Shown here: piece after piece, positions 1,411 through 20,299 of the stretch
Numbering within the stretch: the stretch's first letter is position 1
Layout of the letters: the number at the start of each line of letters is the position of its first letter
Translations under genes and position numbers: made by a program
Origin: a virus
IMG/VR virus record: IMGVR_UViG_3300010885_032827
Coordinates: 1 to 25,059 of that record
DNA: 25,059 bases
Strand: one strand, 5' to 3'
The notes under the pieces: model-generated
Databases searched by the model: none
Told to the model about the DNA's origin: nothing
The model's input: the letters and a program-made list of their open reading frames with translations, nothing else

Positions 1411-2771
1411 TGGCAGATAATCAAGGCATACAAAAAGCCGGTGATGTAAAAATTGAGCAGCTTAAGTTAATAAGCTCCACCAATGTAATATATGACCTTA
1501 CAGAATTCTTAGTTGAGTTAAATCTGTATGAAGATATATTTTCAAATTATCTAACAGGTTCTATCGTTATGTCCGATAGCCGTAACTTGTTTGATATGGT
1601 ACCGATTATTGGTGAAGAGTATCTAGTATTAAAATTTGTAACACCTTCGTTCCCAGCATCAGTGCAGAAGACGTTTAGAATTTATAAAGCAACTGATAGA
1701 CAGGTTGTACGAGATAGGAATACTCAAACGTATGCTTTACATTTTGCATCTATTGAATTATTCTTTGATGTCTTATTGCCGCTTTTTATTCCGTTTGAAG
1801 GGGATATTAATGATGTTGTTGGTAATATATTTAGTAGTTATATTGCTGAAAATAGAGATTTTCAGATTAATGAATCGTCAGATGAGATAAAAGAAATTGA
1901 AAACGTAACTCCCCTGTACATTAAGACGGAAGTAGCAAACAAAATAAAGTTTGTTTCACCTGGGTGGACACCGTTTAAATGCATAAATTGGCTGGCTTCA
2001 AAATCTATACCTAAGGACGGTAAAGCTAAAAACTTTTTGTTTTTTGAGAGTAATAAGAGTTTTTGTTTTACAAGTATTGAAACATTATTTCGCGAAGCTT
2101 ATGAGGACAAGACAAGCATTGGTAAGTATTCCATTTCAGCAGCAGGTATTAGGCAAAGTAGTAATCGACCTGATTTAGATAGAGAATACTTTCTTGCAAA
2201 AGATGTCGAGATGGTAGATACAACCGATCACATAAAAAACTATACTAATGGTTATCTTGCAAATAGATTACTTACACTTGACGTATACAATAAAGAATAC
2301 GTAGTAACCGATTATGATTACGTAAATGAATACAGCAAACAGTATCACACCTCTGGTGATGGTAAAAAATCAATGCCTGTATTTAACAGCGACTCGTTAA
2401 GAAATCCTGCAACAAATATTAGTTTCTATCCCGTTAACCCTAAATTGTTTAATGATTTCCCTGATAACGTCAGTGAGAAGATGAAAGACATATACGGTAA
2501 TAGAAAATCAAGTTTACTCGATCTTACTAACTTAAGAATGAACATCTCTGTACCCGGTAGGACAGATGTTGAAGTAGGCAGGATTCTTTACTTCTCATAC
2601 CCTGCTGTAATCCCAAGCGATAGTTCAGATACAAATGAAACTCTAGAAGATTTAAACTATTCAGGCTACTATTTAATAACAGCTATACATCATAAGGTTA
2701 GTAAATTAAATCATACCATGGTCATGGAGATTGTTAAAGACTCTCTCACAACAGAAAAAGCGGCGAAGTAA
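1410..2771 (+). CDS. 27: Baseplate hub protein, gp27-like
   Basis: The protein has 453 residues (T4 gp27: 391). No single diagnostic motif is visible, but the layout follows gp27 and the N-terminal half of VgrG. It begins with a beta domain (LYEDIFSNYLTGSIVMSDSRN, about residues 37-57) and continues with strands and a FRIYKATDRQ segment. Next come FASIELFFDVL and a middle domain with WTPFKCINWLASKSIP. The C-terminal beta domain carries VEVGRILYFSYPAV and YYLITAIHHKVSKLNHTM. In T4 the gp27 trimer is the adaptor between the six-fold tail tube and the three-fold gp5 spike. Its position directly before the gp5-like genes, with a 1-nt TAATG overlap on both sides, fits this role and suggests coupled translation. 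Cyanophage records often list such proteins simply as baseplate hub. Confidence 0.72.
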   Translation: MADNQGIQKAGDVKIEQLKLISSTNVIYDLTEFLVELNLYEDIFSNYLTGSIVMSDSRNLFDMVPIIGEEYLVLKFVTPSFPASVQKTFRIYKATDRQVVRDRNTQTYALHFASIELFFDVLLPLFIPFEGDINDVVGNIFSSYIAENRDFQINESSDEIKEIENVTPLYIKTEVANKIKFVSPGWTPFKCINWLASKSIPKDGKAKNFLFFESNKSFCFTSIETLFREAYEDKTSIGKYSISAAGIRQSSNRPDLDREYFLAKDVEMVDTTDHIKNYTNGYLANRLLTLDVYNKEYVVTDYDYVNEYSKQYHTSGDGKKSMPVFNSDSLRNPATNISFYPVNPKLFNDFPDNVSEKMKDIYGNRKSSLLDLTNLRMNISVPGRTDVEVGRILYFSYPAVIPSDSSDTNETLEDLNYSGYYLITAIHHKVSKLNHTMVMEIVKDSLTTEKAAK

Positions 2772-3856
2772 TGCAAAGAATATTTAACAAAGACGGCTTT
2801 AATTGGTGGATTGGTGTTGTTGAAGATAGAATGGACCCTGAAAAGCTAGGACGCTGTAGGGTTCGTATCTTTGGTTATCATACTGATAGTAGAGACTTAT
2901 TACCTGTAAAAGACCTTCCTTGGGCAATCCCTATTCAGCCTATTACATCGGCTGCTACCTCCGGTGTAGGTTCTTCACCGCTTGGTCCTGTTACAGGTAC
3001 CTGGGTCATGGGCTTCTTCCTAGACGGAGAAGACATGCAACAACCAGCTATGCTTGGTACTATATCAACTAAAGCGGCTAAAGCAGCATTTGCAGCCACT
3101 GTGGAAAGAGATCCAACTAATAATCCTAATGATGGTGTACAAAGGAACGCTGCAGGTGAACCAGTTAAAGATGAATCAGGGGAACCTGTTAAAGCAGGTA
3201 CGCCTAGTATACCTGGTTGGGAATTAGGTAAAACATCAGAAAAGTTTGAATCGGGTGGCAAGGGTCCTGGTACAATTAACGATTACAAGGGCGGAGCTGC
3301 CGGCGACCTTGGTGGTGCATCTTACGGTACGTATCAACTAGCATCATACCTACCCGTGACCATGAAAGATGGTAAAGCAAGACCCTCACCAAAGAACTCA
3401 CCTGTATTGCAATTTATTAATAACTCTAAATTTAAAAACGACTTTAAAGATCTTGAGCCTGCTACAGCTGCCTTCGATGCTAAGTGGGCAGAGGTTGCGG
3501 GAAAATCTTCAGCTGAATTTAAAGAAGATCAACACAACTATGTAAAGAGAAAATATTATGATGTAATGGTGGCAAACCTACAACGTACAGGGTTAGATTT
3601 AACTAAGTACGGACCTGCGGTACAGGATCTTATTTGGTCAACAGCGGTACAATTTGGGCCAGCAAGAACGTCAATATTTACTGTACCGCTAAAAGGCAAA
3701 AGCGAGTTGACAGAAAAAGATATTGTTAATTTAGTTAGTGAGTATAAGACTAGCCAGGTACCCGAGTTGTTTAAATCTAGCTCTGAAAATATCCGTACTA
3801 GTGTTAAATCAAGATACGCAAGCGAAAAGTCAATACTATTAGGGATGGTTGCATGA
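2771..3856 (+). CDS. 5: Spike hub gp5 N-terminal part: OB fold plus VgrG3-type peptidoglycan hydrolase
   Basis: The protein has 361 residues. Residues about 10-100 are a gp5/VgrG OB-fold domain: NWWIGVVEDRMDPEKLGRCRVRIFGYH, then DLPWAIPI and GTWVMGFFLDGEDMQQPAMLG. A charged, flexible linker (about 110-150) follows. Residues 155-361 resemble the C-terminal wall-degrading domain of VgrG3-type type VI secretion spikes: E160 in FESGGKGPG, then GGASYGTYQL (181-190), a KW..VAG..FKEDQ segment, and IWSTAVQFGPA near the end. E160 is the likely catalytic acid, inferred from the motif. This is not the T4-lysozyme-type domain of T4 gp5. The expected role is to cut the cell wall while the tail tip crosses the periplasm. 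There is no beta-helix here; that part is in the next gene, which starts inside this stop codon (ATGA overlap, 3853-3856). Confidence 0.85.
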   Translation: MQRIFNKDGFNWWIGVVEDRMDPEKLGRCRVRIFGYHTDSRDLLPVKDLPWAIPIQPITSAATSGVGSSPLGPVTGTWVMGFFLDGEDMQQPAMLGTISTKAAKAAFAATVERDPTNNPNDGVQRNAAGEPVKDESGEPVKAGTPSIPGWELGKTSEKFESGGKGPGTINDYKGGAAGDLGGASYGTYQLASYLPVTMKDGKARPSPKNSPVLQFINNSKFKNDFKDLEPATAAFDAKWAEVAGKSSAEFKEDQHNYVKRKYYDVMVANLQRTGLDLTKYGPAVQDLIWSTAVQFGPARTSIFTVPLKGKSELTEKDIVNLVSEYKTSQVPELFKSSSENIRTSVKSRYASEKSILLGMVA

Positions 3857-6201
3857 GTGATATTCTTTCCACACAGATTAGCGGTGTTTTAGAGAACGCA
3901 ATCTTTAATCAGATTAATAGTCTTAACTTAAAAATACCTAATGCGACTGCTCGAGCAATCACATCAAGGATAGCTGAAGTGTATGCAGTAGAAATTGCAT
4001 CGACGGTTTTTAAAACATCTAATCAACAACTGACAAGTATACCAGCTAATATGATTGGTATAAAGAACCCTGTTAATATATTAACTGGTAATTTAGGTAG
4101 TACCGGGGTAACAAACAACTTAAGTAATATTCTTGATGTGCAGCTTACCGCTCAAATTACAGATAAATTAGTTACATCTCTTGAAGCTGAATTAAAACAA
4201 AAACTACCCGCTAATACTAGAAACCTTATTAACTTTGGAGGTCTAGCAGCAACACTTGTTCAATCTCTAACACCTACAGTTTCAGGTGTCGTTGGTACTG
4301 CTTTATCATCTTTTACCGATAGTTTGTTTGGTAGAGGCGGTACTCCTAAACAGTTAATACCAAATGTAGATCAATTGTTTGCTAGCTTCTCAGATGACCC
4401 AGCACAAGCACTAGACAAGATAGATGAGAACTTTGCACAGTCATCTGCAAATAAGTACCTTACTCAAGCTCAAAACTTTGATATTAATAATACCTCTAAT
4501 CAAGAAAAATTAGTTGTACTTAAAAAAGGGTTTACTGACCCTGATGCCAATTACCCAACAAAAGAGTACGCTGGTAGATCTGATACCAATAAACTTGCAA
4601 CAGGGGATGCTGCCGGTACTATTATTCAAGAAAAAAATAATGGTCGAATGAAAGGTGCAAAATTACCAGGCGGTGAGGCTTGGGATGAACCTGAGTCGGC
4701 TTATAAAGGTGAATACCCGTACAACAAAGTTACGCAAACAGAATCTGGTCATATTATTGAATTAGATGATACCCCGGGGTGCGAACGTATTCACATCTAT
4801 CACAAGTCAGGTACCTATGTAGAGATTGATTCTAATGGATCTATTATAAAAAGAACAAAAGGATCATCGTACGAAATTATTGATCGTAATGGGAAGATAG
4901 CAATTTCCGGTGAAGCAGATATTTCCGTAAATGGTGCATGTAACATATTTGTTGGCAATGACGCTAATATTGAGGTTGAAGGCGATACCAATATTACTTG
5001 TCATAATGATATAACAGCACAAGCAGGAGGTACATTGAACCTATCTGCATCTGAGACAATGAACCTTACTAGCCCAAATATTAACATACAGGCTTATCAG
5101 GTTATGAATTTAACCTCTAATGTTGAGTTAAATTTACATTCAACAGATACATTGAATATGCGATCTAATGCAAACGTACTGGTGTATACTGAGGATTACT
5201 TCTTTAAATCAAACACCGATTGTTTTATTCAGGTTGAAGGTAATCAACATAATAAGACAAAGGGTAATCATTTCAACGCTGTAGAGGGTAGCTTTAATAA
5301 TAAAGTAACCGGTGATATTAAAAATCAAGCCAGTGGTAAGATTAGTAACAAAGCCGGTGGTAATATTGATAACGATGGTTCTAACTTCCATATGAACTCC
5401 GGTACCTCCGTAGCAGCAGATAGCGCTGAACCAAGCAAAGAAGCTAATATTGCAGGTATTTCTAACATTGGTATTATGGCAAGCAGAAAAGATATTGTTT
5501 ATTTTACTATGCACGACCCTGCCCCATTGACACTGAGTGATTCTGGTACGTTAGACCTTGAGGAACAAAGTGCTGGTAAAGCAGAAAAAAGAGCACATGA
5601 AGATAAGTTAAGAACATCAGGGGTTGCTTCGACTGCTGATTTAAATCAAAACCCTGTGACGCAAGATAGTGCAAGTATATCTTCAACGCAAACTATTCAA
5701 GTTGCAGGTAATACAGATTTACTTAAAGCTACAAAACTACCCGGCAACTATAATCTATCGCCCAATTTTACACTTGAAATGCTGTCTTCAAAAGCAGCTC
5801 TAACAAGAGATCCCATTGAGAGTACTGAATTAACATATGGTGAAATTGTATATAACTTACAACTTGTTGCACTTAATATTATGGAGCCAGTTTATAACTT
5901 ATACCCGAACGCGTTTGTAACATCTGGGTTTAGGTTAAGAGGTAAGTCAACCGGGACATCTCAACACCCGCTAGGCCATGCTGTTGACATTCAATTTAAA
6001 GGGGCGTCAAAATCTGATTACTTTGAAATAGCTAAGCGTTTAGCTAAGGTATTAAAGTATGATCAGCTGTTATTAGAGTTCTGTGCTTATACTAACAACC
6101 CTTGGATTCATATTTCGTACACGAGTAAAAATGATAGAAGTCAAGTATTGACTTTCTGGAATCATAAAACTCACTCACAAGGGCTGACTCAGTTAGCATA
6201 A
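3853..6201 (+). CDS. 5: Spike gp5 C-terminal part: beta-helix needle plus M15 peptidase
   Basis: The protein has 782 residues. Residues 1-220 are mostly helical and hydrophobic, with no recognised domain. Residues about 270-350 match the start of the gp5 needle (GGEAWDEPESAY, then GEYPYNKV, ESGHIIELDDTPGCERIHIYHKSGTY). Residues about 350-530 are short repeats rich in N, G and V (such as INIQAYQVMNLTSNVELNL), the typical triple-stranded beta-helix. After a low-complexity linker, residues about 630-770 are an M15-type peptidase: SGFR, then H705 and D712 in HPLGHAVD, and H753 in WIHISY as zinc ligands, with E742 a likely catalytic residue. M15 enzymes cut peptide bonds in peptidoglycan stems. 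T4 gp5 lacks this domain. The gene overlaps the upstream gp5-like gene by 4 nt, so both products are probably made together and assemble into one spike. Confidence 0.88.
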   Translation: MSDILSTQISGVLENAIFNQINSLNLKIPNATARAITSRIAEVYAVEIASTVFKTSNQQLTSIPANMIGIKNPVNILTGNLGSTGVTNNLSNILDVQLTAQITDKLVTSLEAELKQKLPANTRNLINFGGLAATLVQSLTPTVSGVVGTALSSFTDSLFGRGGTPKQLIPNVDQLFASFSDDPAQALDKIDENFAQSSANKYLTQAQNFDINNTSNQEKLVVLKKGFTDPDANYPTKEYAGRSDTNKLATGDAAGTIIQEKNNGRMKGAKLPGGEAWDEPESAYKGEYPYNKVTQTESGHIIELDDTPGCERIHIYHKSGTYVEIDSNGSIIKRTKGSSYEIIDRNGKIAISGEADISVNGACNIFVGNDANIEVEGDTNITCHNDITAQAGGTLNLSASETMNLTSPNINIQAYQVMNLTSNVELNLHSTDTLNMRSNANVLVYTEDYFFKSNTDCFIQVEGNQHNKTKGNHFNAVEGSFNNKVTGDIKNQASGKISNKAGGNIDNDGSNFHMNSGTSVAADSAEPSKEANIAGISNIGIMASRKDIVYFTMHDPAPLTLSDSGTLDLEEQSAGKAEKRAHEDKLRTSGVASTADLNQNPVTQDSASISSTQTIQVAGNTDLLKATKLPGNYNLSPNFTLEMLSSKAALTRDPIESTELTYGEIVYNLQLVALNIMEPVYNLYPNAFVTSGFRLRGKSTGTSQHPLGHAVDIQFKGASKSDYFEIAKRLAKVLKYDQLLLEFCAYTNNPWIHISYTSKNDRSQVLTFWNHKTHSQGLTQLA

Positions 6202-6202
6202 T

Positions 6203-6799
6203 ATGCCTAATAAAGTTGCAGTTGTATTTACAAATCAAAGCGGATTTGAAGCTGTATCACCAGACCCTCTTGCCGTTATAACTGACCCAGAAGGCGGCTC
6301 TCAACCTGAACCTGGTATGTTATACCTACCTACAATATATGCAGGTTCAGCTTATTCTATCGATGTTCAGTTTACAGTTAAGTATTACGACCTAATCGAT
6401 CCAACCGTACTTCTAGGTACATCCCTTGCAAGCAATGTTACAACGACCTTTAATTTTGCACAGTATGGTATGAGTGCTGTAAAGGTAAATGCAAGTACTT
6501 ATAGGATCTCTGGTACTTACAGTAATGCATTTCCAGATGAGTATTATCGGTTTAAGATGAAGAACAATAGCTTACAGGTTCTACCAGCTAATACTACAGA
6601 AGATTTTCTAGCATTAGTAGAATATAACATGCCACAACCTGTGACAACAAATAAAGAGATGTTATTTAATGTATCTGCTCCTGCAGAATTTAATGGTTCA
6701 CCAAACATTAACTGGCCATTTACAATGTATCAATGGGTGGTTTGGAGATACCAATCTGCAGTCACCAGCGTTCAATCATTAGTAGATAGGGGAATATAA
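6203..6799 (+). CDS. Unrecognised protein between spike and PAAR tip genes
   Basis: The protein has 198 residues and I do not recognise its family. It is rich in short beta-type stretches (AGSAYSIDVQFTVKYYD, STYRISGTYSN, YYRFKMKNNSLQVLP) with little predicted helix, no signal peptide, no membrane segment and no cysteines. The N-terminal third is proline-rich (PDPLAVITDPEGGSQPEPG). The C-terminus carries a tryptophan-rich strand (WPFTMYQWVVWRYQ). It starts two bases after the needle gene stop and its own stop overlaps the PAAR gene start (TAATG). It is therefore translated with the spike and is likely a virion protein tied to the spike or tip. An immunoglobulin-like or other beta-sandwich fold is a guess from composition only. 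Confidence 0.7.
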   Translation: MPNKVAVVFTNQSGFEAVSPDPLAVITDPEGGSQPEPGMLYLPTIYAGSAYSIDVQFTVKYYDLIDPTVLLGTSLASNVTTTFNFAQYGMSAVKVNASTYRISGTYSNAFPDEYYRFKMKNNSLQVLPANTTEDFLALVEYNMPQPVTTNKEMLFNVSAPAEFNGSPNINWPFTMYQWVVWRYQSAVTSVQSLVDRGI

Positions 6800-7110
6800 T
6801 GCCAGCAATTGCAAGGAAAGATGATACAGTACTTTCACCAGATGGCACGGGCTATAAATGCCGTATGCCTATGAAAACCAAGGTTGATGTTGTAAACGAT
6901 AAGAACGTTTATGCAAATCAAATTCTTGTGGTTGTCCAAGGTAATCAAGTAGCACCACACCCAAAATCGGGATGCACACCGGACAACTCTACCTTAAGTT
7001 CCTACTCATCAACAGTATTTGTTGGTGGTAAGGGAGTAGGTAGAATCGGTGATCAATATTCAGATAACATAATAATTAAAGGCTCAGAGTCGGTCTTTGC
7101 CGGTGGATGA
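6799..7110 (+). CDS. 5.4: PAAR-domain spike tip protein, gp5.4-like
   Basis: The protein has 103 residues, close to T4 gp5.4 and other single-domain PAAR proteins. It shows the expected pattern: an N-terminal MPAIARKDDTV strand, a central QGNQVAPHPKSG turn, and an end with VGRIGDQYSDNIIIKGSESVFAGG, the classic closing strand (compare SEDVFVNG-type ends). PAAR proteins form a sharp metal-stabilised cone that caps the gp5 or VgrG needle and makes first contact with the membrane. Candidate metal ligands are C21, H54 and C59. The position that often holds a His or Cys after RxGD is Q86/Y87 here, so the ligand set is not the standard one. It is the last gene before the promoter at 7124 and completes the spike gene set. 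Confidence 0.85.
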   Translation: MPAIARKDDTVLSPDGTGYKCRMPMKTKVDVVNDKNVYANQILVVVQGNQVAPHPKSGCTPDNSTLSSYSSTVFVGGKGVGRIGDQYSDNIIIKGSESVFAGG

Positions 7111-14173: not shown

Positions 14174-17100
14174 ATGGCGATTGATTTTAATACAGATCCA
14201 TATTATGACGACTTTTCTGAAAGTAGCAATTACTACCGTATACTTTTTAAACCCGGTCGTGCAGTTCAAGCTCGTGAGTTAACCCAGCTTCAAACTATTA
14301 TTCAAAACCAAATTACCAAGTTTGGTAAGAATATTTACAAAGACGGTTCACCTATCGTAGGTGGTAAGACGTTTGTAAGTAACGGGTCGTACATTAAAAT
14401 TAAAGAGACAACTACAATTGCTGCATTTGAAGGCGCAACGGTAATTGGCGGCACATCTGGTGCTAAAGCTATTGTAAGAAAAATTACAACTCACAATACT
14501 ACTAACAATGTTTATTATCCTGCTGCACTTCATTTAGTTTACGTAAGCGGTCAGTTTTTAGAAAATGAAACTATTACAATTGAAGGTACGACAACCGCTG
14601 TTACTGCAATTGCTGATGTAGCTACGTACACGGGGTCAACAACATTCTTTAGCGTAGATGAGAGTGTCTTTTTTATTAAAGGTCATTTTGTCTATGCAGC
14701 ACCACAAACCGTTGTTCTATCTCCGAGATTCGTTAACTTACCGTCAGCAAGACTAGGGTATACCGTTACCGAAGGTATTACAACATCGGATGATGAAGCA
14801 GATCTTCTCGACCCAGCTATTGGCTCAACAAATTATTTCGCGCCTGGTGCAGATAGATATTTTATTGATCTCACATTAACTTCAATCGAGTATGATCCAA
14901 CAATTGAAGACTCTGACGTAACTACTGTCAATGATTTTATTCAAATATGTACAGTAAAGAACGGCGGTGTAATTAATTTGAGTATGGATACGCAGTTTAA
15001 TTCTATTGAAACTGCTATGGCAAGAAGAACATATGATGAGTCCGGCGACTATACCGTAAGACCTTTTATTGCAAAAGTTAAAGATCATCTATACGGCAAC
15101 ACAAGCAAATTATCTGTCGAGGTTTCTCCAGGTAAGGCTTATGTAAGGGGTTATGAGTTTGAGACAACATCACCCTCATACATCACTTTAGATAGAGCAA
15201 GAGATACAAATATTGTTAACAATTATTCTATTGCTCTTGACTACGGTCAATACACCCCGGTATGGAATATTAATAACTTTGTAGCGTTCACAGAAGCCCA
15301 GTTACTTAACATTCACGATATTAAATCCGGTTCAATTTCTGTTTCTAGCAATGCAGCTTATTCTGCAAACATTATTGGTACAGCCCGTGCTCGCTACATG
15401 AGCTATCAGGGCACTGCAGGTACTGGTAATGTTTACAATTTATACCTGTTCGATGTTCGTATGCTGGGAAGCAATACATTTAGTAAAGCAAATGCTTTCT
15501 CTGCCGCAACGTATACATCAGTACCAGCATTAACTGTTAAAGGCGATACATTTGCCTGGGGTAATGCAGCGTTTACATATGGTACGGACGATACACTGCT
15601 GTTTAAAGTCCCTCAAAGAAACATTAAGACATTCTCTAATGTATCTGGTGCCGGTACCTCCGTAACAGATACAACATACCAATCAGTTCGTAATCTTGCT
15701 TCAACAGCGTTTGCACCTGGTACAGGCGGCTATTCAGGCAATTCAGTTGCCACGCTTTCGTTAGCTGGTAGCGAACAATTTCTTGGCTCGGGTCTTTTAT
15801 CTGACACAGATATTAGAGATAGATTTATTGTAACTGTTACAGTTTCAGGAACAGGTACACCGCCAGTAGGTACCATTCTTGATTTTACTGGTGCTAATGG
15901 CGATATTGAGATTATTGGTCAAAATGCATACTTAAGATATAAAGGCAGTACAAGCAGCTTTACAGCCAATGTAATGGCGTTGGTCGTTGCTCAACAAGCG
16001 ACATCAAAAGTTAAGACGCTAACGACTGGTACAGTTACTGTGCCATATGGTAGCAGTGTAACAAATATTTCGTTAAACGTACCTGATGTATACAGTATTA
16101 CGAGTATTACAGATGCTACTGGTAATAGTTACTTCTCTTCTTACCAATTAGATACCGGTCAAAGAGACGATTATTACGATCACGGAAGCGTTACATTAAA
16201 GTCAGACGGTAGAGCTCCTGTATTACACGTCACTAATAACCCCAACGTTGTAGTTACATTCCAATATTTTGGACATACAGGTTCGGGATTCTTTAATGTC
16301 GACTCATATACAAATGGGGGATTAGATTACGGGTCTATTCCTCAGTATAAAAAAGCTTCAGGTGCTATAACAAACCTAGCTGATGTTATTGATTTTAGAC
16401 CAGTAAGAGAAGCAAATAAAACAACATATCTTTCTGATAGATCACCAAAGCCCGGGTCTGCTATGACAGCAGATTATGAGTACTATCTACCTAGAAAAGA
16501 TAAACTTGTACTTACAAAAGAACGTAAGCTAACAATTGCAAAAGGTCTCGCAAGCGACTCTCCTTCTTACCCCAGCGATTTAACCGATGCGCTTGCATTG
16601 TATAATATCGATGTACCGGCTTACACCGGGCGCGCAGAAGATGTACAGTTTACCTATATTGATAATAAGCGCTTTACAATGCGCGATATTGGTAAAATTG
16701 AGAAGCGTGTTGGTAGATTAGAATATTATTCTGCTTTAAGCTTACTTGAAAAGCTTGATGCTGATGAAAGAATACCAAGTCAAATAGCTGGTATTGACAG
16801 ATTCAAAAACGGTATTCTGGTTGATTCATTTGCAGGGCATTCTGTAAGCGATGTAAATAATGGTGATTTAAGATGCTCTATTGATTACGATAATAGATTA
16901 ATGAGACCACGATTTGTTTCTGAGTCTTATATGTACGCGGTTAGTGGTGGTGAATCAACATCATATAAAAAATCTTTTGATTTAGTCACAATGGACTATA
17001 CAACAGAGCCATTTGTATCTCAAATCAAAGCTACTAATACAACATACCTAACACCATTTGAAGTATTTACATGGACAGGTACGATGACTTTAACTCCATC

Positions 17101-20100
17101 CACAGATGTGTGGGCGGATACGGTTACTAACCCAACGGTTACAGTTAACCTTAACGGTGAAAACGACGCGTTTACTCAAATTACATTAGACAATACAGGT
17201 CTATCTCCATGGGGTACTAAATGGAATGATTGGCAATCAGTCTTCCGTGGCTTAACTGATGTGTCTGTGGATGTATCTGCAGTTACAAATGTAAGTAATG
17301 ATGTTCAGATTGATAAGACAGGTAAGATATCTGTAACACCGACTGCAAGAACAGACGTAACAACCTCTGTAACGAAGACATCACAAGAATCATTTGCGAG
17401 AACAGGCCTACAATTTAACACCGCTGCTAAGACCATTACATCAAAGCTAGGTGAAAAGGTAATTGATTCAAGTATTATACCTTTCATTAGATCAAAGCCA
17501 ATTTCATTTGCTGCGTATAATTTAAAACCCGATACTCAGATGTATGCTACATTCGATGGCATCGATGTTACAAAATACTGCACACCTTCAGTGGCTGTAA
17601 AGTTTTTAAATACATTACCTAATAACATTACACAAATAAGAGTGTTGTCAGGTGGTTCAACAGTATCGGTAGGCAATGTTATATCGCAAAGAGGCAATGT
17701 GTTATACATGATGCCTGATATTACTACGAAGCTACCTGTAACCGGTAACACAGCAACGCTTGTTGCTGAAACAACTACAACTGCATCTATCTTAGGTGTT
17801 ACTATAACCAATCAGACATTAAGAACTGATGCTACGGGTGGTATTGCCGGCAGATTTACTATTCCTAATAATGGTGATCTTAAGTTTAACTTAGGTGAAA
17901 GAGCATTCCGATTAGCAGATACTTTAGATAAACGATTTATTACAACGGTTGCTGAAACAAAATATCTTGCTTACGGTTTATCTCAAACTAAAGAAGATAC
18001 AATTCTTGCAACTAGAATGAATCTGGTTTCAATAGATCCGCTATTAGAAGTTAAAAAGAGTGCTGCAGAAACTTCGGTATCAAAAAATACTAGCATAGGT
18101 AAGGCTACGGTAGGTACATCTAATCAAGCCCAACTACCTCCACCTATACCTGCATATACACAGACTTTATTCTGTGGTGAAGCAATACAAACAACAGGGT
18201 TACAAGGTGTACATAACTTTAATATTAATCTTGGTATTGGTGTAGGTGCAGCTAATGTAACGTGTTTTAGCGATGTAATACCTGATAGATTTACATTAAT
18301 TTATAAAGGTCAAGAAATTACTTCTGGCTTTATGACAAGAAGTGCTGATGCAGGTGTTAACCTTGGTTACTCTATACGATTAAAAGATTTGGGTTATCCA
18401 GAAATTACAAGAACTGGATGTACCTCTCATGTAATAGAGTTTACAAAGCAAGAAGAAGGTATTGAGTTTGCTACTGTTAGAGTTGATGCTCCTTTAAAGG
18501 GTACAGGATGGAATTTTAATATTAAATGTCCTTCTGGTACGACAACACCTGCTCCGGGTTCTGCACGTATTGATATTACCGATCCTGTTGTAACATTGTT
18601 ATCAAAAGATTTTGGTGATGTAGGAAGAACTGCAGGTGCTCAGACTGCTGTAACCGATATTGGTGTTCGATGCACAATAACAAATACAGCTACAGATAAG
18701 AGATGGTCAAAACAAGGAACAGATAAGACAATTTATCTCGAAGCATTAACTTGGTCAACTGTATCCGGAGTTAATGAAGGTACGGCTACAATTATAACAA
18801 CGGGCACTGGTCAAGGCGTATACAACGGGACTGTTTATCCAAACAAAACAACAGAGACATGGCAAAATACGCTTGGAACGCTACCTGTATTACTACAACC
18901 AGGTGAGTCAAGAACATTTACTGTTCGATTAGCTAAAACTGCTACCCAGCGTGCTAACGGTAGATGCCAGATCCTACCATCTCTATCTGGACCAGGTGTT
19001 CAAAGTCAGTTATACAATGTATCAACCAACATACCAACAATTGACTTTCAAACTCAGGATGCTAATCCCCCTCCTGCACCAATAGACCCACTTGCACAGA
19101 CGTTCTTTGTTGAGTCAAGAGATTTTCCAAACGGCTTATTCCTAGCCTCGGTTGACTTGTGGTTTAATCAAAAAGACGAATTACTACCTTGTTCAGTAGA
19201 AATAAGACCTGTTGTTAATGGCTATCCAAGCTCAACAGATATAATTCCTTTTGCTACTGCTGTTAAGGATTCTTTTAACATAATTGCATCCACAACGTTT
19301 AGTATTTCTAATAATACTAACTTTAAGTTTAATGCACCAGTTTATTTACCACCTGGTCAGTATGCTTTAGTAATTAAAGGTAATTCTAAGAAGTATATTA
19401 TTTACTCTGCATCGCTAGGTGAGTTTAAACTTGATGAGCCTGATGTTAGAGTAACAGATCAACCATATATTGGTTCGATGTTTAAGTCTCAAAATGCTTC
19501 TACCTGGACAGCAGACCAAGGTATGGATATTACCTTTAGACTTAATAAATGTAAATTCAGCACAACGACACCTACAACGGTTATTCTTAACTCTGTAGCT
19601 CCTACAAATAACGTCGAGTATGATGTATTTTATACAACTGGAGAAAATTTACAGTTTGCTGATACTTCTACCCTTTACTCATTCAAGTCAACAAGTAATG
19701 CAACCGGTGCACTAGACTCTGCATACAGAGGTTATTTACTAGGTTCAAATTATGGAATGGATGAGCGTAAAGCCATTAAATCTAGTACACCTAGCTCGTT
19801 GAAATTTAATGTTGTACTGTCTACAACTGATACGACTATTTCACCTGTAATTGACTTAGAGAGATTGAGTAGCGTTCTAATCCGTAACATTATTAACAAC
19901 GATGCAACTAATGAAGATAGTTACAGCGGCGGTAACGCTTCAGCAAGATATATTACTAGACGCGTTACGTTGAATCCAGGCTTTGAAGCTAAGGACATGA
20001 GAGTGTATCTAAATGCTTATTGCCCTGGACCTTCATCAATTAAAGTTTATTACAAAGTAAATGCACCTGGAACAACGCAGTTTGACTCCGATAATAAATA

Positions 20101-20299
20101 CGTGTTAATGAATAATTTATTTACGAGCGGTGATACAAAGTCTGGCTTTGCAGAATATACATTCACAACCTTCCTAGGTCAATGCTTACCAGATGGTGCT
20201 GATTACAGTACGTTTGTTGTTAAAATCGTTATGTTATCATCTGATACAACTCAGGTGCCAATCATAAGAGACTTAAGGGTGTTAGCGCTAGATGCATAA
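14174..20299 (+). CDS. Giant DUF4815-type virion structural protein
   Basis: The protein has 2041 residues. The N-terminus is the hallmark of a marine T4-like family annotated with DUF4815: FNTDPYYDDFSESSNYYRILFKPGRAVQARELTQLQTIIQNQITKFG. Residues about 83-130 hold a beta module (GATVIGGTSGAKAIV then SGQFLENETITI). Later family blocks include YKKASGAITNLADVIDFRPVRE, RDIGKIEKRVGRLEYYSALSLLEK, and DPLAQTFFVESRDFPNGLFLASVDLWFNQKD followed by PYIGSMFKSQNASTWTADQGMDITFRLNKC. Between the last two, residues of about 1330-1620 appear to be added beta domains, one with CGEAIQTTGLQGVHNFNINLG and PDRFTLIYKGQEI, the other ending LQPGESRTFTVRLAKTATQ. It sits where T4 has genes 9-11, so an outer baseplate or fibre-holding role is likely but inferred. 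The start ATG follows TAAGGTAAAAC. Confidence 0.85.
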   Translation: MAIDFNTDPYYDDFSESSNYYRILFKPGRAVQARELTQLQTIIQNQITKFGKNIYKDGSPIVGGKTFVSNGSYIKIKETTTIAAFEGATVIGGTSGAKAIVRKITTHNTTNNVYYPAALHLVYVSGQFLENETITIEGTTTAVTAIADVATYTGSTTFFSVDESVFFIKGHFVYAAPQTVVLSPRFVNLPSARLGYTVTEGITTSDDEADLLDPAIGSTNYFAPGADRYFIDLTLTSIEYDPTIEDSDVTTVNDFIQICTVKNGGVINLSMDTQFNSIETAMARRTYDESGDYTVRPFIAKVKDHLYGNTSKLSVEVSPGKAYVRGYEFETTSPSYITLDRARDTNIVNNYSIALDYGQYTPVWNINNFVAFTEAQLLNIHDIKSGSISVSSNAAYSANIIGTARARYMSYQGTAGTGNVYNLYLFDVRMLGSNTFSKANAFSAATYTSVPALTVKGDTFAWGNAAFTYGTDDTLLFKVPQRNIKTFSNVSGAGTSVTDTTYQSVRNLASTAFAPGTGGYSGNSVATLSLAGSEQFLGSGLLSDTDIRDRFIVTVTVSGTGTPPVGTILDFTGANGDIEIIGQNAYLRYKGSTSSFTANVMALVVAQQATSKVKTLTTGTVTVPYGSSVTNISLNVPDVYSITSITDATGNSYFSSYQLDTGQRDDYYDHGSVTLKSDGRAPVLHVTNNPNVVVTFQYFGHTGSGFFNVDSYTNGGLDYGSIPQYKKASGAITNLADVIDFRPVREANKTTYLSDRSPKPGSAMTADYEYYLPRKDKLVLTKERKLTIAKGLASDSPSYPSDLTDALALYNIDVPAYTGRAEDVQFTYIDNKRFTMRDIGKIEKRVGRLEYYSALSLLEKLDADERIPSQIAGIDRFKNGILVDSFAGHSVSDVNNGDLRCSIDYDNRLMRPRFVSESYMYAVSGGESTSYKKSFDLVTMDYTTEPFVSQIKATNTTYLTPFEVFTWTGTMTLTPSTDVWADTVTNPTVTVNLNGENDAFTQITLDNTGLSPWGTKWNDWQSVFRGLTDVSVDVSAVTNVSNDVQIDKTGKISVTPTARTDVTTSVTKTSQESFARTGLQFNTAAKTITSKLGEKVIDSSIIPFIRSKPISFAAYNLKPDTQMYATFDGIDVTKYCTPSVAVKFLNTLPNNITQIRVLSGGSTVSVGNVISQRGNVLYMMPDITTKLPVTGNTATLVAETTTTASILGVTITNQTLRTDATGGIAGRFTIPNNGDLKFNLGERAFRLADTLDKRFITTVAETKYLAYGLSQTKEDTILATRMNLVSIDPLLEVKKSAAETSVSKNTSIGKATVGTSNQAQLPPPIPAYTQTLFCGEAIQTTGLQGVHNFNINLGIGVGAANVTCFSDVIPDRFTLIYKGQEITSGFMTRSADAGVNLGYSIRLKDLGYPEITRTGCTSHVIEFTKQEEGIEFATVRVDAPLKGTGWNFNIKCPSGTTTPAPGSARIDITDPVVTLLSKDFGDVGRTAGAQTAVTDIGVRCTITNTATDKRWSKQGTDKTIYLEALTWSTVSGVNEGTATIITTGTGQGVYNGTVYPNKTTETWQNTLGTLPVLLQPGESRTFTVRLAKTATQRANGRCQILPSLSGPGVQSQLYNVSTNIPTIDFQTQDANPPPAPIDPLAQTFFVESRDFPNGLFLASVDLWFNQKDELLPCSVEIRPVVNGYPSSTDIIPFATAVKDSFNIIASTTFSISNNTNFKFNAPVYLPPGQYALVIKGNSKKYIIYSASLGEFKLDEPDVRVTDQPYIGSMFKSQNASTWTADQGMDITFRLNKCKFSTTTPTTVILNSVAPTNNVEYDVFYTTGENLQFADTSTLYSFKSTSNATGALDSAYRGYLLGSNYGMDERKAIKSSTPSSLKFNVVLSTTDTTISPVIDLERLSSVLIRNIINNDATNEDSYSGGNASARYITRRVTLNPGFEAKDMRVYLNAYCPGPSSIKVYYKVNAPGTTQFDSDNKYVLMNNLFTSGDTKSGFAEYTFTTFLGQCLPDGADYSTFVVKIVMLSSDTTQVPIIRDLRVLALDA

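Follow-up and report, generated by a model that had tools for sequence, protein, structure and literature searches.

The window analysed here is the whole 25,059-base stretch of virus record IMGVR_UViG_3300010885_032827, a T4-like baseplate gene run by its Pfam and PHROGs matches and probably a fragment of a larger genome. Within it, the counterpart of gp5, the textbook piercing protein that in T4 is made whole and then cut, is divided between two consecutive genes on the plus strand, where their parts and the hub and PAAR genes described below also lie. The first gene, gp5a (2771–3856, 361 amino acids), carries an OB fold and a VgrG3-like muramidase domain, as identified from the open reading frame (ORF), Pfam, phmmer and an AlphaFold model, while the second, gp5b (3853–6201, 782 amino acids), carries a helical domain, a linker, a beta-helix and an M15-type domain, as identified with Pfam, PHROGs, phmmer and AlphaFold. 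The two are joined by a 4-nt ATGA stop/start overlap (3853–3856), which is seen in the sequence and recurs in relatives. Both frames and their overlap are present as an earlier reading made from the letters alone (the sequence-only reading) had described them.

Domain architecture of gp5a and gp5b

The N-terminal part of gp5a (residues 8–97; 2792–3061) forms a gp5-type OB fold that matches T4 gp5 in phmmer (E 6e-22) and the Pfam Gp5_OB profile at 58.8 bits against a cut-off of 25 (E 9.5e-16). It is followed by a hydrolase domain (residues 152–353; 3224–3829) that covers the entire PF21277 profile (T6SS_VgrG3-like_C) at 183 bits against a cut-off of 27 (E 7.2e-54). This domain matches the C-terminal structures of Vibrio cholerae VgrG3 both by sequence (4noo, phmmer E 3.1e-40) and by predicted fold (4nso, Foldseek E 1.8e-16, TMt 0.87), in agreement with the domain content that had been proposed from sequence; the VgrG3 treated in PMC5061870 is another one and plays no part in this comparison. 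The putative catalytic glutamate, E160 (3248–3250), aligns with the glutamate of 4noo that we take to be catalytic in VgrG3, and it is invariant in all 51 gp5a sequences compared. The gp5a model has a mean pLDDT (predicted local distance difference test) of 75.4, with good confidence over the VgrG3-like domain and poor confidence over the OB fold. The second domain of gp5a is thus a VgrG3-like muramidase by sequence and model, with a predicted activity.

The gp5b chain begins with about 215 helical residues, which the sequence-only reading had not described. In the AlphaFold model, residues 1–215 (3853–4497) form an all-helical domain, which finds no match in Pfam, PHROGs, the phage collection or the PDB sequences. 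Its structural matches, to CNOT1, reach a Z of up to 8.6, in a range that the tool rates as common for helical bundles, and on the model the domain could still be an already known fold. A relationship to the helical stretch of cyanophage gp5 was considered and rejected (hhalign probability 0.1 against four cyanophage proteins). The helical domain is followed by a gp5 linker with a GFxDP..YP motif (residues 224–256; 4522–4620), which matches the tail of the Gp5_OB profile below its cut-off (E 0.0078) and exceeds that cut-off in the relatives G002 and G003. The linker leads into a gp5-type trimeric beta-helix, the needle, that spans approximately residues 276–540, the end being approximate (4678–5472), and was recognised with phmmer and Foldseek. 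Specifically, residues 277–390 match the start of the T4 gp5 beta-helix (phmmer E 1.3e-19), gp5b matches phrog_430 (E 1.6e-53), and Foldseek pairs the model with T4-type gp5 at E values between 3.2e-4 and 9.6e-4, the TM-scores being low for a trimer folded here as one chain.

The C-terminal region of gp5b (residues 622–782; 5716–6198) is assigned as M15-type because it matches phrog_894 (E 5.4e-15), its model aligns with 1lbu, a zinc DD-peptidase (VIA-align Z 11.3 over 129 residues, root-mean-square deviation 3.0), and its putative zinc ligands H705 (5965–5967), D712 (5986–5988) and H753 (6109–6111), together spanning 5965–6111, are invariant in 41 of 41 sequences. Their spacing follows HxxxxxxD ... 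H, which we presume to be the M15 zinc-ligand pattern. In the fused relative L186, the M15 domain exceeds the Pfam cut-off at 27.5 bits. The gp5b model has a mean pLDDT of 70.4, with the M15-type domain modelled well and the linker poorly. The domain is probably an M15-type peptidase on sequence and model grounds, again with a predicted activity. The two genes therefore carry one predicted hydrolase domain of glycan type and one of stem-peptide type, as the sequence-only reading had held.

Conservation of the split and its relatives

A search of IMG/VR with gp5a returned 77 loci, and the junction could be scored in 63 of these, giving 64 rows with the window included. The split is present in all 64 rows, with a 4-nt overlap in 23, a 1-nt overlap in 33 and a 1-nt gap in 8, an ATG at the junction in every row, and gp5b always in another frame than gp5a. 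Three of the 14 unscored loci end 51–56 nt past gp5a and show TAATG followed by the start of gp5b; the remaining 11 either stop short of that point or give too little match. L002 and the window share 99% identity, and some other loci are near copies; removal of identical sequences left 51 gp5a and 41 complete gp5b sequences, in which the active-site candidates E160 and H705/D712/H753 are retained throughout while much of the neighbouring sequence varies. The gp5 split is real and conserved in a clade of uncultured T4-like phages.

The helical domain is found in all 64 rows with a profile built from the same clade, whose own members match by construction, and this profile finds no match in either of the fused VgrG3-type contigs (L186 and L246). 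An occurrence of the domain outside gp5b was considered and rejected: a single-protein scan gave two loci, L289, which lies on the same contig as L002, and L290, whose contig is cut inside the helical domain and continues into the linker, beta-helix and M15 domain. A second gp5 elsewhere in the genome, the circumstance that the sequence-only reading had named as speaking against its view, was considered and rejected: six larger relatives, which may all be fragments and none of which is shown complete, have one OB gene each; the longest of these relatives measure 159,688 and 165,076 bases. The second Gp5_OB match in four of these six, above the cut-off in two, is the gp5b linker. In three loci, one in-frame stop interrupts an otherwise open gp5b (L008 8274–8276, L026 2842–2844, L047 2861–2863), and in L019, L032 and L045 gp5b looks frameshifted; these copies represent strain variants or assembly errors.

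The overlap had been read as built-in 1:1 translation, a claim that found no support. Seven of the 18 gene junctions in the window, on our chosen ORF list, overlap by 1–17 nt (the 17-nt case needs a TTG start), and the gp5a/gp5b junction varies among relatives. Because tight packing is common in this operon, the ATGA overlap is not specific to the pair; it fits coupled translation and does not single out gp5a and gp5b.

A scan of the collected loci with profiles made from these sequences resolves three arrangements: 64 window-type splits, 57 Melnitz-type splits and single chains. The Melnitz search yielded 80 loci, comprising 56 splits, 11 with the OB fold and beta-helix in one chain, and 13 without the OB part or cut off; the 57 Melnitz-type splits are these 56 contigs and Melnitz itself. 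Single chains with an OB fold, linker, beta-helix and M15-type domain occur in L173, L182–L185, L187, Cr30, pf16 and BUCT-ZZ01. Two further contigs, L186 (90,767 bases) and L246, hold the OB fold, VgrG3-like domain, linker, beta-helix and M15 domain in one frame of about 900 codons. An OB fold and beta-helix without an M15-type domain are found in Mosig, BUCT608 and seven contigs (L174–L177 and L179–L181). The BUCT-ZZ01 search gave 46 loci, 42 of which have the M15 domain only. Across the 50,697 phage records searched, from which very near records may be omitted, no single place covers 80% of gp5a or gp5b.

Two trees address the history of the splits: a gp5b tree (beta-helix and M15 domain), with 90 sequences thinned to 40 by similarity, and a gp6 tree, with 84 thinned to 45 and 11 lacking a readable gp5 arrangement omitted. 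In the gp5b tree, window-type and Melnitz-type splits form distinct clades with single chains between them; one group of both splits is rejected (p-AU 0.00225), and at least two state changes are required. The gp6 tree likewise rejects one group (p-AU 0.00418), with two state changes. The trees contain long branches, and the change counts cannot separate splitting from refusion; two independent splits are the simplest but not the only reading. Phage P-HM2 has a third split arrangement and stands outside both trees.

These comparisons place the window beside several known systems. In T4, according to the available text of one account (PMC3004832), the lysozyme is the middle of gp5 and is joined to the beta-helix by the linker in which the cut falls; the mature spike is (gp27-gp5*-gp5C)3, in which the linker and beta-helix restrain the lysozyme, whose full activity requires the beta-helix to depart first. 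As far as that text goes, the window shares with T4 the order of OB fold, enzyme and beta-helix and a spike of two polypeptides broken between enzyme and beta-helix. T4 gp5 is a single gene cut at Ser351/Ala352, whereas the window has two genes, as do all scored rows; it carries a T4-type lysozyme where gp5a has the VgrG3-like domain; and it ends in the beta-helix, whereas gp5b adds a helical domain and an M15-type tail. Additionally, a linker-like segment of T4 gp5 (residues 112–139, a weak match) lies before the lysozyme, whereas the window linker lies after the break. The sequence-only reading had proposed that the split replaces the maturation cut: the break does follow the enzyme, but its position is not identical, the GFxDP linker being on the beta-helix side. 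Judged from domain order, the split would resemble the T4 cut in effect and not in exact position, and its replacement of that cut may be called a fair analogy.

The arrangement is not unique, since Melnitz and P-HM2 are also split. Melnitz EXVC044M, a Methylophilales phage, has an OB gene followed by a linker/beta-helix gene, named in GenBank 'OB domain protein' and 'baseplate hub subunit/tail lysozyme'. Neither gp5 nor 'OB domain' appears as a term in the main text of its paper, so far as that text is available (PMC9004378). The M15-type domain is in the second gene in 51 of the 57 Melnitz-type splits, and the other six end before that point. Melnitz-type gp5a carries a VanY/M15-type domain and no muramidase, whereas the window has the VgrG3-like domain; the Melnitz-type proteins show no match to the helical-domain profile and form their own clade in both trees. 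In the Melnitz-type contig L116, about 280 nt separate the OB frame from the next, unlike the other 57 rows (P-HM2 included). P-HM2, a Prochlorococcus phage, has two adjacent genes with a 1-nt overlap, both annotated gp5, one with the OB part and one with the beta-helix part; unlike the window, neither half has a Pfam-named enzyme domain. No discussion of P-HM2 gp5 was found in the accessible portion of PMC3037559. The pelagiphage Mosig was considered as a case of pulled-apart halves and rejected, its gp5 being a single short chain that has the linker and beta-helix but lacks a Pfam-named enzyme. Within the titles and abstract openings searched, a coverage that leaves out most subscription journals, no literature on a split gp5 gene was found.

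The enzyme adjoining the OB fold differs among these spikes: it is VgrG3-like in the window, of VanY/M15 type in Melnitz-type gp5a (above the Pfam cut-off in three of four contigs tested, below it in L105 and in Melnitz), GH19 in BUCT-ZZ01, L184 and L173 (below the cut-off in L184), and Phage_lysozyme2 in Cr30. The needle-end M15-type domain, by comparison, is shared by window-type and Melnitz-type splits and by the listed single chains. BUCT-ZZ01, a Synechococcus phage, and Cr30, a Caulobacter phage, thus resemble the window in combining a glycan-type enzyme with an M15-type domain in one spike protein, but as single genes and with GH19 or Phage_lysozyme2 in place of the VgrG3-like domain; their M15 domains fall below the Pfam cut-off and were found with a profile built in this analysis. 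L186 and L246 share the OB fold, VgrG3-like domain, linker, beta-helix and M15 domain with the window, but in one frame and without a match to the helical-domain profile. Because BUCT-ZZ01, Cr30, L186 and L246 carry two enzyme domains in a single chain, the two-enzyme spike is independent of the split, and a second wall-cutting enzyme does not require a split gene. The two-enzyme tip that had been proposed therefore stands as regards its two domains, but not in its dependence on the split. The hub protein gp15 of Anabaena phage A-1(L) has two assayed wall-cutting activities, an endoglucanase and a peptidase, and, as described in the available part of that report, is a single gene with its enzyme domains in the hub and not the spike, the third domain being lysozyme-like (PMC10966104).

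In four Melnitz-type loci (L087 3362–6405, L135, L152 and L160), an M15/VanY-type domain is present in both spike halves; by sequence, the Melnitz-type spike would have two predicted peptidases and no recognised muramidase. In L174 (2126–4312), a gp5-type single chain ends in a CHAP match just below the cut-off instead of an M15 domain, a further exchange of enzymes. The GFxDP..YP motif directly follows the OB fold in Mosig and Milchi, follows the enzyme in BUCT-ZZ01, L186 and the window, and in Melnitz occurs close to where gp5b begins; the search found no copy in the remaining known proteins, Cr30 and pf16 among them. Judging by this order of domains, gp5 seems to have taken up its enzyme domains at different points.

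Proposed assembly and function of a two-protein spike

The window probably encodes a T4-like central spike made as two separately translated proteins. A gp5a trimer would sit beneath the hub, with gp5b below it as a needle whose cap would be the PAAR protein encoded downstream. On tail contraction, the needle would pierce the outer envelope and carry both enzymes to the peptidoglycan, where one would cut glycan strands and the other peptide stems. Since the halves would never have been one chain, no maturation cut would be needed for the needle to leave the muramidase, and the helical domain would probably help to keep the needle on the hub until release. The domains, the split with its conservation, the invariant active-site candidates and the PAAR neighbour are direct observations, whereas the trimers, the docking, the joint assembly, the order of events and both activities are inferred in this scheme. 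L186 and L246, which carry the same domains in one chain, suggest that both halves are parts of a single spike.

Several points weigh against this reading. The gp5b chain stays below the Pfam cut-offs for Gp5_trimer_C (20 against 30.9 bits) and Peptidase_M15_3 (14.2 against 23.2 bits), its Foldseek match to 1lbu reaches an E of just 0.0033, and many residues of the OB part and the linker region have a pLDDT below 50 in models that are of single chains only. Melnitz gp5b has just 33 residues ahead of its linker motif, so a spike can be split without a helical docking domain. Moreover, the replacement of the cut by the split is put forward by analogy.

A docking role for the helical domain is a natural guess because the domain goes with the split in the window-type clade, and residues 1–215, as modelled, may be the docking part. 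A further-reaching version would make this domain a docking and release module that replaced the cleavable link of T4, came with the split, holds the needle non-covalently and lets go on impact, freeing the muramidase without a protease, with uncut two-gene spikes having arisen at least twice; this is a tentative proposal that we consider doubtful.

It is unlikely that gp5a makes up the spike base while gp5b, either a needle of its own or an unattached wall hydrolase, docks on it at no fixed ratio. Separate genes with a domain of no assigned role between them would suit such an arrangement, as would the M15-type domains fused to PAAR proteins in Milchi and Vibrio phage 1.244.A; however, both the linker and the beta-helix of gp5 are in gp5b, and both halves are united in related single chains. 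Quite unlikely, too, is a merely structural, inactive role for one of the enzyme domains, which the M15 score and the predicted nature of both activities would allow, since the putative active-site residues are invariant amid variable sequence and the folds match 4noo/4nso and 1lbu. We judge it very improbable that programmed frameshifting or readthrough at the junction yields a full-length gp5a–gp5b fusion besides the two separate proteins. The frames do differ and mostly overlap. Of 63 rows (the window included), 18 have a gp5b frame that runs on without a stop for over five codons ahead of its ATG, and 16 have a slippery-type heptamer, in any frame, in the last 45 nt preceding the stop. Against this, a stop closes the gp5b frame no more than two codons ahead of the ATG in 28 of these rows and no more than five ahead in 45, 47 rows have no such heptamer, and of the 64 junction rows eight have a 1-nt gap in place of the overlap and all have an ATG there. 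An assembly or sequencing artefact, which the stops and frameshifts in a few gp5b copies might suggest, is a negligible prospect when 63 further contigs with many sample numbers are split at the same place with three junction spellings.

Collectively, the split marks a conserved clade, but comparable cases of gp5 in two genes (Melnitz, P-HM2) and of two-enzyme spikes occur in known phages. With a break similar to that of T4 written into genes, beside one-gene relatives, the purpose of the T4 cut becomes testable by comparison. The spike further appears as a modular tool, in which the OB-side enzyme is swapped (VgrG3-like, M15-type, GH19, Phage_lysozyme2) and the needle-end M15-type domain recurs. 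A 2018 review, in its available text, assigns endopeptidase-type virion lysins nearly always to phages that infect Gram-positive bacteria (PMC6116005), which makes M15-type domains in T4-like spikes noteworthy.

Gene neighbourhood

The genes of the run follow the order phrog_230 tail tube cap, gp53, hub-like gene, gp5a, gp5b, a 198-amino-acid gene, PAAR, gp25 and gp6, with gp53 matching phrog_232 and Pfam Phage_gp53. The hub gene (1410–2771), directly upstream of gp5a and overlapping it by 1 nt, matches phrog_350 'tail protein' (E 1.4e-74); we take it to be gp27-like from its position, by the T4 gene order. An NCBIfam search of gp5a, gp5b and the hub gene gave no match. The VgrG of the type VI secretion system presumably joins gp27-like and gp5-like parts in one chain, whereas gp5a is 361 amino acids long and begins at the OB fold.

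The second gene downstream of gp5b (6799–7110) encodes a PAAR-motif protein, a probable spike tip cap (PF05488 E 6.5e-8; phrog_281 E 4.4e-17). Between the two lies the 198-amino-acid gene (6203–6799), which has no Pfam or PHROG match; a relative turned up in 12 of the 77 window-type loci, some of which stop too early to include it. The gp6 protein is 41% identical to that of HTVC008M, 39% to Mosig, 38% to Melnitz and 36% to BUCT-ZZ01 among the top-listed phage records, HTVC008M and Mosig being pelagiphages. Further downstream, a 2041-amino-acid protein (14174–20299) matches phrog_358 and phrog_877, large PHROG families without known function.

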